A stretch of DNA of 47,107 nucleotides from Natronomonas aquatica (GTDB lineage: Archaea; Halobacteriota; Halobacteria; Halobacteriales; Haloarculaceae): the NCBI RefSeq assembly GCF_024449025.1, contig NZ_JAHLKM010000012.1, positions 31,924 to 79,030 of the forward strand, given 5' to 3'. Within the stretch, counting starts at the first letter, position 1. Each line of letters starts with the position of its first letter. Below are positions 21,578 through 26,869 of this stretch, one piece after another. The translations under genes and the position numbers were made by a program. The notes under the pieces are model-generated. The model did not search any database, was not told where the DNA came from, and saw nothing but the letters and a program-made list of their open reading frames with translations.

Positions 21578-22837
21578 ATGCCGACAACACGCCGAACCTA
21601 CGTCTGCCGCATCCAGAACCACACGCAAGTGGCTGGTGCGCTCGACAGACACGGCTGGTCGGCATCCAAACTCTGGAACGTCGCCAACTACTACGCCCGC
21701 CAACAGTGGGACGAAACCGGCGAAATACCCGACGAAAATGAACTCAAACGCGAACTGAAAACGTATCCAAAATACAAAGGACTGCATAGCCAGTCCAGCC
21801 AGAAAGTTTTAGAAGAGCTTTCTGAGGCGTTCAGTTCGTGGTTTGGCTCCGACGACAACCGGGATAACCCACCGGGCTACCGCAAAACCAACTACTACGA
21901 CGAAGACGGCAACAGAGTCCACGAAGAACACCCACGAAGCACGGTGACGTGGAAGCAGAAAGGTATCCGCCACGACACCAAACACGAAAAAATCCGTCTG
22001 GGCAAAGGAAAAAACCACAAAGACGGACATGACTTCATCCTCTGTGAGTATCAAGCACCACCAGAAGTCGAACTGGAGAACATCCAGCAGGTGCGTGCTG
22101 TCTGGTGTCGCTCCAAACAACGATGGGAGTTACACGTCGTCTGTAAAGAAGAAATCGCCGTAGAGTCGCCCGGCGAGAAAACCGCAGGTGTTGACCTCGG
22201 TATCTGTAATCCCGCCGCTGTCGCGTTCCCTGACGATGCCGTACTGTATCCGGGGAACACGTTGCGCGAAGACAAGCACTACTTCCAGCGAGAAGAATAC
22301 CAGACAGAAGGGCCGCATGGCCCCAGTCAGATGGCACAGTGGGCACGGGAGAAGCTGTCACGGCGGAAAGACCACTTCCTGCACGCTCTGTCGAAAGACA
22401 TTGTTGAACGATGTGTTGCCCACGACGTTGGAACGCTCGTTGTGGGCGACCCGAGCGGTGTTGACGACGATGACTGGGGCAGGCACGGCAACAAACGCCT
22501 CGATAACTGGGCGTACAAGCGGCTGATGAACCTCATCGACTACAAAGCCCGAGAGCGTGGCATCGAGGTAGAAATGCCCGACGAACGCGGTACGTCATCG
22601 TCGTGTAGCGTGTGTGGGAACGAGGATGATGACAGTCGTGTTGAACGTGGACTGTGGAAGTGTGGTCGCTGTGGGGTTGTCGCGCATGGCGACGTGAATG
22701 GAGCCGATAATATCAGACAGAAAACGCTACCCGTGACTCCCCCACTTGGGGATAGCGGTAACGGCTGTTTGGCCCAGCCTCGCGTCATTCACTTCAGCCG
22801 GACTCGTGGATTCCAACCGCGAGCACCCGCCGAGTGA
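21578..22837 (+). CDS. tnpB: RNA-guided endonuclease TnpB family protein
   Basis: Full-length TnpB of 419 residues, no frameshift. The RuvC-like nuclease contains the first Asp (Asp206, in AGVDLGICNP), the second-motif region LVVGDPSGV (286-294), ERGTSSSCSVCG with a four-cysteine zinc finger (Cys343, Cys346, Cys362, Cys365), and the last Asp (Asp372, in HGDVNGADNIR). At the second catalytic position the usual Glu is not seen; Gly290-Asp291 stand there, as I recall for other haloarchaeal IS1341 members. TnpB proteins cut DNA guided by an RNA made from the right end of their element, helping the element persist. The C-terminal tail (GNGCLAQPRV...) overlaps the presumed RNA. Start ATG 21578 follows an AT-rich leader. 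Confidence 0.92.
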   Translation: MPTTRRTYVCRIQNHTQVAGALDRHGWSASKLWNVANYYARQQWDETGEIPDENELKRELKTYPKYKGLHSQSSQKVLEELSEAFSSWFGSDDNRDNPPGYRKTNYYDEDGNRVHEEHPRSTVTWKQKGIRHDTKHEKIRLGKGKNHKDGHDFILCEYQAPPEVELENIQQVRAVWCRSKQRWELHVVCKEEIAVESPGEKTAGVDLGICNPAAVAFPDDAVLYPGNTLREDKHYFQREEYQTEGPHGPSQMAQWAREKLSRRKDHFLHALSKDIVERCVAHDVGTLVVGDPSGVDDDDWGRHGNKRLDNWAYKRLMNLIDYKARERGIEVEMPDERGTSSSCSVCGNEDDDSRVERGLWKCGRCGVVAHGDVNGADNIRQKTLPVTPPLGDSGNGCLAQPRVIHFSRTRGFQPRAPAE

Positions 22838-23054: not shown

Positions 23055-23780
23055 TTAATGTGACTCTATGAGTCCGTACGTGGACTCGAGATGGTCGATG
23101 ATCCAGTCGACAGTCGCCGGATCGTAGGTCCAAAAGCCGTAAAACGAACGCTCCTCGCGTTCTTCGGCCAAGAGTGCACACTTGTTCACGTCGACGCCGG
23201 CGCCGTCGTAGGCGACGAACCACGACCGCTCGATCTCGTCGCTTCGCTCGACGTGGATCGTCAGGCCGGTGTCGTGTTCCGGTACCTCGGTGTCGGGCAC
23301 GGCGTAGGCGTGGACATCGAGAGAGCCCTTCTCGGCCAGCTGCTCGTAGATGTCCATCTGATCGTGAAGGATCGAGAGCCGCTGGAATCCGGAGCGCAGC
23401 GACCCCTTGCCGATCCGCCAGGCCCGGTCCTCGATCTCCCGGGAGGCCGCGACCATCTGGCCGATGTCGTAGGAGGTAAACATCGTTTGGTCGAGGTGAT
23501 CGAGGATCGGTCGGTAGGGGTCGCCATCGAAGCCCGGATCGGTCCGTCCCTCGTCGGGTTCGAGAATGTTCTCCGCGTCGGCGGCGGTGACGAACTCACC
23601 GTCGTCCGAGAGTACCACGAACGCGTTCGGTCGACCGCTCGATGTCCGCTCGGTCGAGACAGAGATGTTCCGGTCGTGGAACTGCTCGCGGAGGGCGGAC
23701 GTGACCCCTTTGTCGGCGTTGAAGACCGTCAACACCTTCTCGTGGTCTTCGACACCCGCGATGAGTTCGGTGAATGACAT
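23055..23780 (-). CDS. DICT sensory domain-containing protein
   Basis: A 241-residue soluble protein. The middle and C-terminal parts (TMFTSYDIGQMVAASREIEDRAWRIGKGSLRSGFQRLS ... SWFVAYDGAGVDVNKCALLAEEREERSFYGFWTYDPATVDWIIDHL) agree with the DICT domain, a predicted sensor associated with diguanylate cyclases, two-component and light-responsive proteins. The first 80 residues (MSFTELIAGVEDHEKVLTVFNADKGVT..FVVLSDDGEF) form a typical N-terminal alpha/beta part of haloarchaeal DICT proteins. No output domain is attached, so it probably acts through a partner protein. It is a single gene; its stop lies a few bases from the end of the insertion element. The ligand is unknown. Confidence 0.82.
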   Translation of the reverse strand: MSFTELIAGVEDHEKVLTVFNADKGVTSALREQFHDRNISVSTERTSSGRPNAFVVLSDDGEFVTAADAENILEPDEGRTDPGFDGDPYRPILDHLDQTMFTSYDIGQMVAASREIEDRAWRIGKGSLRSGFQRLSILHDQMDIYEQLAEKGSLDVHAYAVPDTEVPEHDTGLTIHVERSDEIERSWFVAYDGAGVDVNKCALLAEEREERSFYGFWTYDPATVDWIIDHLESTYGLIESH

Positions 23781-23893: not shown

Positions 23894-24823
23894 ATGCTAG
23901 GGCGTCTCCGGGCGGCCGTGTGGGGGATCTACGAGCGGCTGTTAGAGCGTGAAATCTCGGGGGCGCCGACACACGTCGCGGTGATACAGGACGGTAACCG
24001 CCGCTACGCGAGAGAGCACGGCGAGGAGGCGACCGAGGGCCACCGGGCGGGCGCGGACACGACCGAACGGGTACTCGAGTGGTGTTCTGACCTCGGCGTC
24101 GAGGAACTGACACTGTATGCGTTCTCGACGGAGAACTTCGAGCGCCCCGACGGGGAACGGGAAGCGCTGTTCGATCTCATCGCCGAGAAACTCCGGGACT
24201 TCGCCGACCGACCGGAGGTTCACGACCGGCGTGTCCGGATCAGGGCCATCGGTGAGACCCACCGGCTCCCCGAGCGGGTTCAGGACGCTATCGAGTACGC
24301 AGAGGGAAAGACGGCCGACTACGACGAACTGTACCTGAACGTCGCGCTCGCCTACGGTGGCCGGGCGGAACTGCTCGGCGTTACCCGGGCGATCGCCCGG
24401 GAAGCGGCCGCCGGCGAACTGGATCCGGGTGACGTAACCGTCGCGGAGATCGAGGAACGGCTCACGACCGGGCCGACGCAGGCGGTCGATCTCATCATCC
24501 GGACCGGCGGCGCCGAGCGAACGTCGAACTTCCTCCCGTGGCACGCCAACGGTAACGAGGCGGCAGTCTACTTCTGTGCGCCCTACTGGCCGGAGTTCTC
24601 CCGGATCGATTTCCTCCGAGCGATCCGGACCTACAGGTCCCGCCAGGAGTCGTGGCGCCGGACCCGCGTCCAGCGGGCGGCCGCCCTCGTCGGCGCGGTG
24701 AGCGACGTCGAACTCGAGGAGGCGGCCCGGATCATCGGGCAGTTCCGCGGGTCGGTCCCCGAATACGAGACCGACTGCGAGGACATCGACGATCGCGACG
24801 ACGGGAACTCCCCGGCCGGCTGA
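23894..24823 (+). CDS. uppS: cis-Prenyltransferase (polyprenyl diphosphate synthase)
   Basis: Adds isopentenyl diphosphate units in cis to an allylic primer, making the long polyprenyl chain used for dolichol-type glycosyl carriers at the membrane. It has 309 residues. The catalytic motif is VAVIQDGNRRYAREHG with Asp33 (archaeal variant of MDGNGRWA). STENFERP follows, then the C-terminal substrate site LIIRTGGAERTSNFLPWHANGNEAAVYFC, with the Arg and Ser that hold the homoallylic diphosphate. All key residues are present. The start ATG 23894 gives the common haloarchaeal N-terminus. It is followed by a convergent, shortened paralogue at 24855-25463. Confidence 0.93.
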   Translation: MLGRLRAAVWGIYERLLEREISGAPTHVAVIQDGNRRYAREHGEEATEGHRAGADTTERVLEWCSDLGVEELTLYAFSTENFERPDGEREALFDLIAEKLRDFADRPEVHDRRVRIRAIGETHRLPERVQDAIEYAEGKTADYDELYLNVALAYGGRAELLGVTRAIAREAAAGELDPGDVTVAEIEERLTTGPTQAVDLIIRTGGAERTSNFLPWHANGNEAAVYFCAPYWPEFSRIDFLRAIRTYRSRQESWRRTRVQRAAALVGAVSDVELEEAARIIGQFRGSVPEYETDCEDIDDRDDGNSPAG

Positions 24824-24854
24824 GTGAATCGGGTACCCCCGTTCGAGATTTGGC

Positions 24855-25463
24855 CTACCGGCCAAACCGCCGCTTCCGTTCCTGATACTCCCTGACTGCC
24901 CGCAGGAAGTCCCGACGGCGAAAGTCCCGCCAGTTGACGTCGGTGAAGTATAGCTCCGAGTAGACCGACTGCCAGATGAGGAAATCCGAGAGCCGTTCGG
25001 CGCCGGTCTTGATGACCAGATCGGGGGAGGACTGAAACACCAGCCGCCGTTCGATCTCGTCCTCGTCGATCTCTTCGGGGTCCAGCTCGCCTTCGGCGGC
25101 GTCGGCCGCGATCCGACGGACCGCCGCGGCGAACTCCCGTCGCCCCCCGAGGCCGATGCTGATCTGGACCGGCGTCTCGGCGGCCGAGTCGGCGTCCGGC
25201 CCGCGGACGGAGACCTCGCGGGGGCTGTCGAGATCCGACAGCGCCGTCCGAAGCGTCGGGATCGCGGCCTCGTCGAGGACGCTCACGTAGATCATCACCG
25301 TACTCGTTCCGGCGTCGAACGCCCACCGCAGAAACGACGAGAGCGTCCCGTAGGCGCCCTGTTCCAGGAGGTCGTGTTCCGTGATCACGAGCGCGATCCG
25401 CTCCGGGACGGCCGCGTCGCTCAGGCGGATCCGTGCGCCGAGATACCGGTCGTACAGGCCCAC
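24855..25463 (-). CDS. cis-Prenyltransferase-like protein lacking the catalytic N-terminal motif
   Basis: A paralogue of cis-prenyltransferase, shorter at 202 residues against 309 for its neighbour. In the N-terminal motif the DGNRRYA of the partner is replaced by EHDLLEQ (residues 29-35, [17 protein letters not shown]), so Asp becomes Glu and the Gly-Asn-Arg phosphate loop is lost. The central part is compressed. The C-terminal part is well kept: [27 protein letters not shown] retains the second Arg, Ser and Glu of the diphosphate site, and the family tail [16 protein letters not shown] is present. This is the pattern of the non-catalytic subunits of heteromeric cis-prenyltransferases (NgBR/Nus1 type), so a subunit role with the adjacent enzyme is the favoured inference. 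It diverges from the DUF92 gene. Confidence 0.85.
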
Positions 25464-25546
25464 AGCCGAACGTTCGTCGCCGGCCGGGTGAACGTATCGG
25501 TCCGGCCTTCGGGAAGGTTAAGTGGACAACGGGGGAATCCCGCTCC

Positions 25547-26869
25547 GTGAGACGCGACACCAGCCGGGCCGTCGGGTATCTGCTCGTCGGGAGCCTCGCG
25601 TTCTTCCCGCCGATCCTCGAGGGGCGGGTCGGCGATACGGCGGCCGCCATCGGGTCAGTTGCTCCGCTCGCGCTCGTCGCCGCGCTCGCGTTACGTTCGC
25701 GGGGCGGTCCGGTCTTCGATCGCCTCGCCAGCGCCGACGACCGGGAGGAGGGACGGCTCTACAGTCTCGCGTCTTTCACCCTCGCCGTGACGGCGCTTTC
25801 GGTGCTCGCCGTGGCGTTCGCGCTCCCGGTCGCGGCGTTCGTCGCCGCCGTGTTCGTCCTGACCGTCGGGAGGCTCGGTCGAACTCTCGCCCGGCCGTGG
25901 ATACGGACGGCCGCCGCCGGGGCGGCAGTGTTCGTCGCCACCGGAACGCTCGGCGCGATCGCGGCGATCCGTCTGGCGGGCGAACTCGGCGCCGCCGTCC
26001 CCCCGCTTCCGGTCGTCGCCTTCGTCGCCGCCAGCGGCGGCGTCCTCGGGGCGCTCGTCCGATCGACGCTGACTCCCCGCGACGATCCGATCGTGCTGCT
26101 TTTGAGCGCGCTCGTGCTGTGGTTCCTGCTCGGTCTCGATCTCGAGCCGACGACCGGCCGGATCGCCGTCGGACTCGCAGTGACCGTCGCGCTCGGGTAC
26201 GTCGCCTACGCGCTCGGGACTGCCTCGGTCACGGGCATGCTCACCGGCGTCTTGCTCGCGCTCTTTGCGGTCGTCCTCGGCGGCTACGGCTGGTTCGTCC
26301 TCCTGATGACCTTCTTCGGGCTCGGCGGCCTCGCCTCGAAGTACCGCTACGAGGAGAAACTCGAACGCGGCATCGCGGAGGAAAACGAGGGCGCCCGCGG
26401 GGGCGGCAACGTCCTGGCGAACTCGGCGGTCGCGCTCGTCGCCGTCGTCTCTTATGCCGCCTCCGATCACCTCGGGGTCGACCCCACGGTCTTTCAGTTC
26501 GCGTTCGGCGGCGCCGTCGCCGCGGCGCTTGCCGACACGTTCTCCAGCGAGTTCGGCGGGCTCTTCGATTCGCCGCGGCTCATCACGACGTTCGAGCCCG
26601 TCGCTCCCGGGACCGACGGCGGGGTCACCTGGCAGGGAGCCGCCGCCGGAGCCGTGGGGGCCGTGATCATCGCGGCGCTGGGCGGGCTGTTCTTCGGGTT
26701 CGAGGCGATCGCCGTCGCGACGGTACTCGGCGCCGGAATCGTCGGCATGGTCGTCGACAGTATCCTCGGTGCGACCCTCGAGGGGGGACGGGTCGGCAAT
26801 CAGGGCGTCAATCTGCTGGCGACGCTCGCCGCCGGGATCACGGCCGGCGTCGTCTCGATCGTGATATGA
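25547..26869 (+). CDS. DUF92/TIGR00297 integral membrane protein
   Basis: Polytopic membrane protein of 440 residues with about 11-12 hydrophobic segments. The conserved C-terminal half contains the family signature: GLGGLASKYRYEEKLERGIAEENEGARGGGNVLANSAVA, LADTFSSEFGGLF, GTDGGVTWQGAAAG and DSILGATLEGG. The family includes TMEM19 and the plant chloroplast VTE6-type phytyl-phosphate kinases; no archaeal function is established. The N-terminal half is a haloarchaeal extension of extra helices. Start GTG 25547 comes shortly after a gttaagt TATA-like stretch; frames further upstream overlap the divergent gene. Its stop overlaps the GNAT start by ATGA. Its position beside two cis-prenyltransferase genes hints at a role in polyprenol phosphate metabolism. 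Confidence 0.82.
   Translation: MRRDTSRAVGYLLVGSLAFFPPILEGRVGDTAAAIGSVAPLALVAALALRSRGGPVFDRLASADDREEGRLYSLASFTLAVTALSVLAVAFALPVAAFVAAVFVLTVGRLGRTLARPWIRTAAAGAAVFVATGTLGAIAAIRLAGELGAAVPPLPVVAFVAASGGVLGALVRSTLTPRDDPIVLLLSALVLWFLLGLDLEPTTGRIAVGLAVTVALGYVAYALGTASVTGMLTGVLLALFAVVLGGYGWFVLLMTFFGLGGLASKYRYEEKLERGIAEENEGARGGGNVLANSAVALVAVVSYAASDHLGVDPTVFQFAFGGAVAAALADTFSSEFGGLFDSPRLITTFEPVAPGTDGGVTWQGAAAGAVGAVIIAALGGLFFGFEAIAVATVLGAGIVGMVVDSILGATLEGGRVGNQGVNLLATLAAGITAGVVSIVI

Follow-up and report, generated by a model that had tools for sequence, protein, structure and literature searches.

In homodimeric cis-prenyltransferases the RxG motif of one chain reaches into the active site of its partner, and a heteromeric member of the family, Af1219/Af0707, is reportedly present in Archaeoglobus fulgidus. 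According to PMC8131916, the arginine of RxG in the homodimeric enzymes contacts Mg2+ via water, and in some of their structures the backbone of its glycine binds the acceptor phosphate; the same source cites Emi et al. 2019 for a heteromeric enzyme of Methanosarcina mazei, composed of MM_0618 and MM_1083, that gives C45-50 products. In the human enzyme, as described in PMC7573591, the RxG tail of NgBR completes the active site of DHDDS, where L291-G292 binds the S2 phosphate, and the NgBR chain stops at K293, a single residue past RxG; DHDDS and yeast Nus1 are each said there to be able to homodimerise alone, DHDDS homodimers being poorly active. For Haloferax volcanii a C60 dolichol phosphate is mentioned in PMC10821996, and a long cis-chain synthase is therefore to be expected. 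The two-subunit design is thus already known from methanoarchaea and human, and what is added here is its haloarchaeal reach, a quantified motif split and the tail of the long subunit. In the literature searched, from which most subscription papers were absent, no haloarchaeal heteromer is described by title or abstract opening.

The window, a stretch of 47,107 nucleotides from Natronomonas aquatica, contains two convergent cis-prenyltransferase reading frames whose stop codons are separated by 31 nt (Table 1). Both lie where the earlier note had placed them, and the sequences on which it relied are present: IQDGNRRYA with its catalytic Asp in the long protein, and EHDLLEQ and a 16-residue diphosphate-binding stretch in the short. 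Residues 31-252 of the long protein match positions 1-216 of the 219-position Pfam profile PF01255 (2e-68), residues 97-201 of the short protein match positions 115-219 (1.2e-28), and a search of the complete genome at E <= 1 found no further PF01255 protein. The short paralogue had been called truncated, which holds in so far as it is reduced; it is, however, shortened and not merely broken off, its N-terminal half having diverged. Unlike homodimeric UppS, neither window protein combines DGNxR and RxG in one chain. A gene for a TnpB-family RNA-guided endonuclease (21578-22837, plus strand; NF040570, 7.4e-56) is found upstream of the pair, and a DICT-domain protein (PF10069, 4.3e-16) is encoded on the minus strand at 23055-23780, adjoining the long gene.

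Table 1. Features of the paired cis-prenyltransferase genes and their neighbour, in window coordinates.
Feature	Position	Strand	Match or conservation
Long catalytic cis-prenyltransferase subunit (putative), 309 aa	23894..24823	+	PF01255 2e-68; genome's only full-length member
DGNRR catalytic motif, D33 (= E. coli D26)	23990..24004	+	DGN[RG]R in 150/150 long proteins read
RTGGAERTSNF diphosphate-binding loop, R203, R209, S211	24500..24532	+	E. coli R194, R200, S202 columns invariant in 150/150 long proteins
Ser-Trp-Arg where homodimeric enzymes have RxG	24650..24658	+	RxG absent at aligned columns in 150/150 long proteins
C-terminal extension of long subunit, predicted helix-turn-helix	24659..24820	+	AlphaFold2 helices 237-268, 271-287
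Short non-catalytic subunit (putative; NgBR-like in role), 202 aa, GTG start	24855..25463	-	PF01255 1.2e-28, C-terminal half only
RxG motif R199-F200-G201, one residue before C-terminus (RRFGR-COOH)	24861..24869	-	RxG in 145/146 short proteins
Ten-residue KTGAER loop, Lys at E. coli R194 position	24981..25010	-	K in 120/146, R in 24/146 short proteins
EHDLLEQ in place of catalytic motif	25359..25379	-	DGNxR in 0/146 short proteins
DUF92 membrane protein, divergent from short gene; context, not part of the enzyme	25433..26869	+	PF01940 5.8e-53

The division of motifs between the two proteins is general. In an alignment numbered by E. coli UppS, D26, N28, R77, R194, R200, S202 and N203 are kept in all 150 long rows, and in all 146 short proteins the R77 column is gapped while G244 and E213 are kept; Asp stands at the D26 column in eight short proteins, without GNxR behind it. 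The region aligned to UppS residues 72-122, which, going by what is generally known of this fold, covers part of the product tunnel, has a median of 30 residues in short proteins versus 53 in long. Every one of the 146 short proteins stops exactly one residue after the glycine of the RxG position, one of them having KFG instead, and 14/14 further short proteins, read later and outside the genome count that follows, end in R[FY]Gx. The exact split, with DGNxR in the long protein only and RxG in the short only, holds in 133/134 Halobacteriota genomes in which both genes were read, the sole exception being G164, where K replaces R (KFG for RxG); for the remaining 27 of 161 genomes a single locus was fetched or a gene was cut at the locus edge, which implies no absence. 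Near-remnants of the RxG motif stand at the ends of two Archaeoglobaceae-like long proteins (RVFGQHL and RQEGV). The short subunits of genus g13 (L322, L323, L329, L332) have a variable insertion ahead of a conserved GLGGK strand; wherever both genes were listed for a g13 genome, the short gene lies apart from the long.

Enzymes encoded by a single gene provide the control. Among 27 named genomes searched, 12 from Halobacteriota or Marine Group IV carry long and short proteins, the long matches stopping at profile position 214-217 of 219, and 12 other archaea have one protein each, with both motifs in one chain in 11; the N-terminus of the twelfth is cut by a contig end. By pattern, DGNxR is present in 37 of 38 bacterial loci and RxG in 35; in the others R is replaced by N or K. 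As judged from sequence, the C-terminal RxG, unnamed in the earlier note, is the defining feature that the short protein has kept and the best evidence for its role. The KTGAER loop had been put forward there as the element completing the partner's site, a part for which the RxG tail is better supported, because KTGAER has Lys where active chains have an invariant Arg.

Co-occurrence across haloarchaea, proposed in the earlier note as a survey, proved near-universal: in a class sample of 145 genomes, the long gene was detected in 144, the short in 145 and both in 144, with only the short gene and no long match in G072, a draft of about 120 contigs. The short protein is thus independently conserved, the opposite of what had been named as a refutation. 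In 113 of the 144 genomes with both, the genes lie within 10 kb and are always convergent, an arrangement that therefore provides no shared transcript to balance the subunits. The other 31 keep both although unlinked (18 farther apart on one contig, 13 on different contigs), and we accordingly rejected linkage hitch-hiking as an explanation. Beyond the class, the short profile was matched in 142/148 genomes of a phylum sample, and long and short occurred together in 51/55 genomes of a mixed set. Five of the six phylum-sample genomes without a short match belong to family f17, where no PF01255 protein was found in either genome tested (G151, G169), which suggests joint loss of both genes. In the genus Methanosarcina the short gene was found in 30/30 and the long in 29/30 genomes, unlinked; in one of these (G303, 4.1 Mb) a third paralogue, the long gene and the short gene are spaced by about 770 and 552 kb, which would fit the gene numbers MM_0014, MM_0618 and MM_1083.

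Additional paralogues occur in places. Four haloarchaeal genomes, G068, G061, G105 and G098, have a second catalytic paralogue (L313, L314, L315 and L316) and one short gene each; these second copies keep DGNxR and, by eye, lack RxG at the matching place. In G002 a 622-aa frame (L317:1114-2979, minus strand) ends in a divergent cis-prenyltransferase-like domain with PDGHRRYA and the end RRNEGR. Of the third paralogues in three non-haloarchaeal genomes, L081 and L101 end in TLGG, as reported for MM_0014, and L082 has a similar tail.

A 120-row tree unites all short proteins in a single clade (SH-aLRT 100) and places the long proteins, together with third paralogues of the MM_0014 type, in another (97), with single-copy archaeal and bacterial enzymes outside both. 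The long and short proteins of Methanosarcina spelaei fall inside the respective clades, so that orthology with the Methanosarcina pair is seen at clade level, through this species. A more careful 88-row tree, which excluded the long-branch short rows of G153, G162 and G171 along with the matching long rows and the third paralogues, and in which other genomes were thinned, recovered the short clade at 100/99 and the long clade at 100/97; grouping of long with short is weakly supported (84/71). This is in keeping with a homodimeric enzyme having been duplicated once, probably in the common ancestor of the phylum, to give the pair.

Both chains are predicted to have the fold of the cis-prenyltransferase family. 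Compared with PDB structures by VIA-align, the AlphaFold2 model of the long protein (mean pLDDT 84.8) matches UppS and DHDDS with Z up to 29.7. The model of the short protein (mean pLDDT 87.1) scores nearly alike against DHDDS, homodimeric enzymes and NgBR (Z 13.6-15.1); in the NgBR alignment its residues 1-202 correspond to NgBR 80-293. The RxG end of the short model (200-202) has pLDDT under 50, and this single-chain model is therefore silent on where the tail lies. An N-terminal membrane anchor was looked for in the short protein and none was found, its first 16 residues containing no hydrophobic stretch. There is presumably an ITE-like stretch common to the short protein and NgBR. We do not claim a special kinship between the two, considering that the fold scores are nearly tied and that the short profile favours homodimeric UppS (5.5e-29, compared with about 1e-4 for NUS1); because it is so much nearer UppS than NUS1, common descent of the haloarchaeal and eukaryotic heteromers is likewise not claimed.

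In the long model the last domain helix (237-268) passes through the RxG position; after a turn comes another helix (271-287). Confidence in this part is moderate, with pLDDT about 70-77 as far as residue 280 and 58 over 281-290. Past the RxG column, 102/102 haloarchaeal long proteins have a tail of 32-87 aa, the median in 48 others being 13. Alignment of DHDDS to the long model reaches only DHDDS residue about 262-267, and the resemblance of the haloarchaeal tail to the DHDDS helix-turn-helix is suggestive only. According to PMC7573591, the DHDDS element at this place does not fit with the contact network of the active site and serves to assemble the tetramer.

The division into catalytic subunit and pseudo-enzyme that the earlier note had drawn from DHDDS/NgBR and the methanoarchaeal pair is well supported by the motif split, the co-occurrence, the clades shared with Methanosarcina and the predicted folds. 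Because the motifs are split, because the genes co-occur also when unlinked, and because both clades include Methanosarcina, we consider it highly likely that the pair is a heteromeric cis-prenyltransferase making the polyprenyl diphosphate from which the dolichol-type glycan carrier of haloarchaea is derived, and very probably an obligate heteromeric synthase of that carrier. We infer the complex itself and its stoichiometry, a requirement of both chains for activity, and the product and its use. We hypothesize that the long subunit would hold the Mg2+/allylic diphosphate site (D33, RTGGxxRxSNF) and the product tunnel, and that the short would be a pseudo-enzyme of the same fold, without the catalytic Asp and with the tunnel region reduced. 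By analogy with DHDDS/NgBR, the short tail R199-F200-G201-R202 would cross the dimer interface into the active site of the long subunit, where the RxG backbone would bind the diphosphate of incoming isopentenyl diphosphate. The long subunit presumably could not supply such a tail to a copy of itself, because its RxG is lost and its last helix continues into the C-terminal extension. By analogy it might nevertheless have weak activity by itself, which is conceivable because DHDDS and yeast Nus1 can form homodimers alone (PMC7573591). Also counting against the heteromer are the convergent gene order, KFG in place of RxG in G164, the short gene without a long match in G072, and the near-remnants of RxG in the two Archaeoglobaceae-like long proteins.

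An alternative is that the long protein works as a homodimer and the short one is an optional stimulator or modulator of chain length. All examined catalytic-site columns are indeed kept in the long protein, and the poorly active homodimers that DHDDS is described as forming alone (PMC7573591) provide a precedent; but RxG is missing from 150/150 long proteins while single-copy enzymes retain it, and not one of 145 haloarchaeal genomes is missing the short gene, making this alternative improbable. Less probable still, and in our estimation very unlikely, is that the short protein does not bind the long at all and has a separate, non-enzymatic role in binding isoprenoids or in regulation. Such a role would be in keeping with the gene order, in which a DUF92 gene lies divergent beside the short gene in 69/81 haloarchaeal loci tested and may be its best gene-order partner, a pairing that persists in genomes whose long gene is at another locus (e.g. 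G033, G129). In the window the true start of this DUF92 frame is probably near 25547 (PF01940 4.8e-53 from there); a conserved DUF92-uppS link (e.g. HVO_2318) has already been published in PMC5898192, together with the guess that the family has a kinase-requiring role in isoprenoid biosynthesis. Against a separate role, however, the only known use of a conserved C-terminal RxG is inside a partner's active site, its retention in the short protein mirrors its loss from the long, and the Methanosarcina homologues belong to the same two clades. That the short gene is a decaying duplicate, as its lack of the catalytic motif and of part of the tunnel region could imply, has practically nothing left to recommend it, since it is conserved in 145/145 haloarchaeal genomes with invariant residues in 18 aligned copies (77% mean column identity), which also shows that the frame is no chance ORF.

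Returning to the heteromeric synthase, it is tempting to speculate that the haloarchaeal long subunit has evolved, apart from DHDDS, a conserved C-terminal helix-turn-helix that bars activity as a homodimer and joins heterodimers into a tetramer, and that a single short subunit is shared by two different catalytic subunits in certain genomes, giving two chain-length programmes, much as yeast Nus1 serves both Rer2 and Srt1. Haloarchaea would then have gone further towards the human arrangement than other archaea, a proposal that, taken whole, we regard as doubtful.

A heteromer of this kind would name the likely carrier synthase for haloarchaeal protein N-glycosylation, genetically tractable species included, and would mean that a gene annotated as a synthase is inactive or weak without its small partner. 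It would also provide a natural comparison for the human enzyme, in which mutation of RxG is described as causing disease (PMC7573591). The two-subunit design itself would date back to the base of an entire phylum of archaea.

Compared with the described systems, the locus resembles M. mazei MM_0618/MM_1083 in that each genome pairs a catalytic with a non-catalytic PF01255 paralogue, but the Methanosarcina genes are unlinked whereas the haloarchaeal ones are mostly convergent neighbours. Long and short proteins of family f14, which we take to be Archaeoglobaceae, fall in the same two clades, and among the rows listed their long proteins stop some 1-11 residues from the RxG position, without the long haloarchaeal tail. 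Homodimeric UppS from bacteria, Thermoplasmata, Bathyarchaeota and Desulfurococcales belongs to the same family and fold, but has DGNxR and RxG in one chain. With human DHDDS/NgBR and yeast Rer2/Nus1 the pair shares a catalytic subunit that lacks RxG and has a C-terminal extension, and with the human enzyme also a pseudo-subunit that stops one residue after RxG and predicted folds that align to the DHDDS and NgBR chains; NgBR, however, has an N-terminal membrane anchor, whereas the short protein starts directly with the cytosolic domain.
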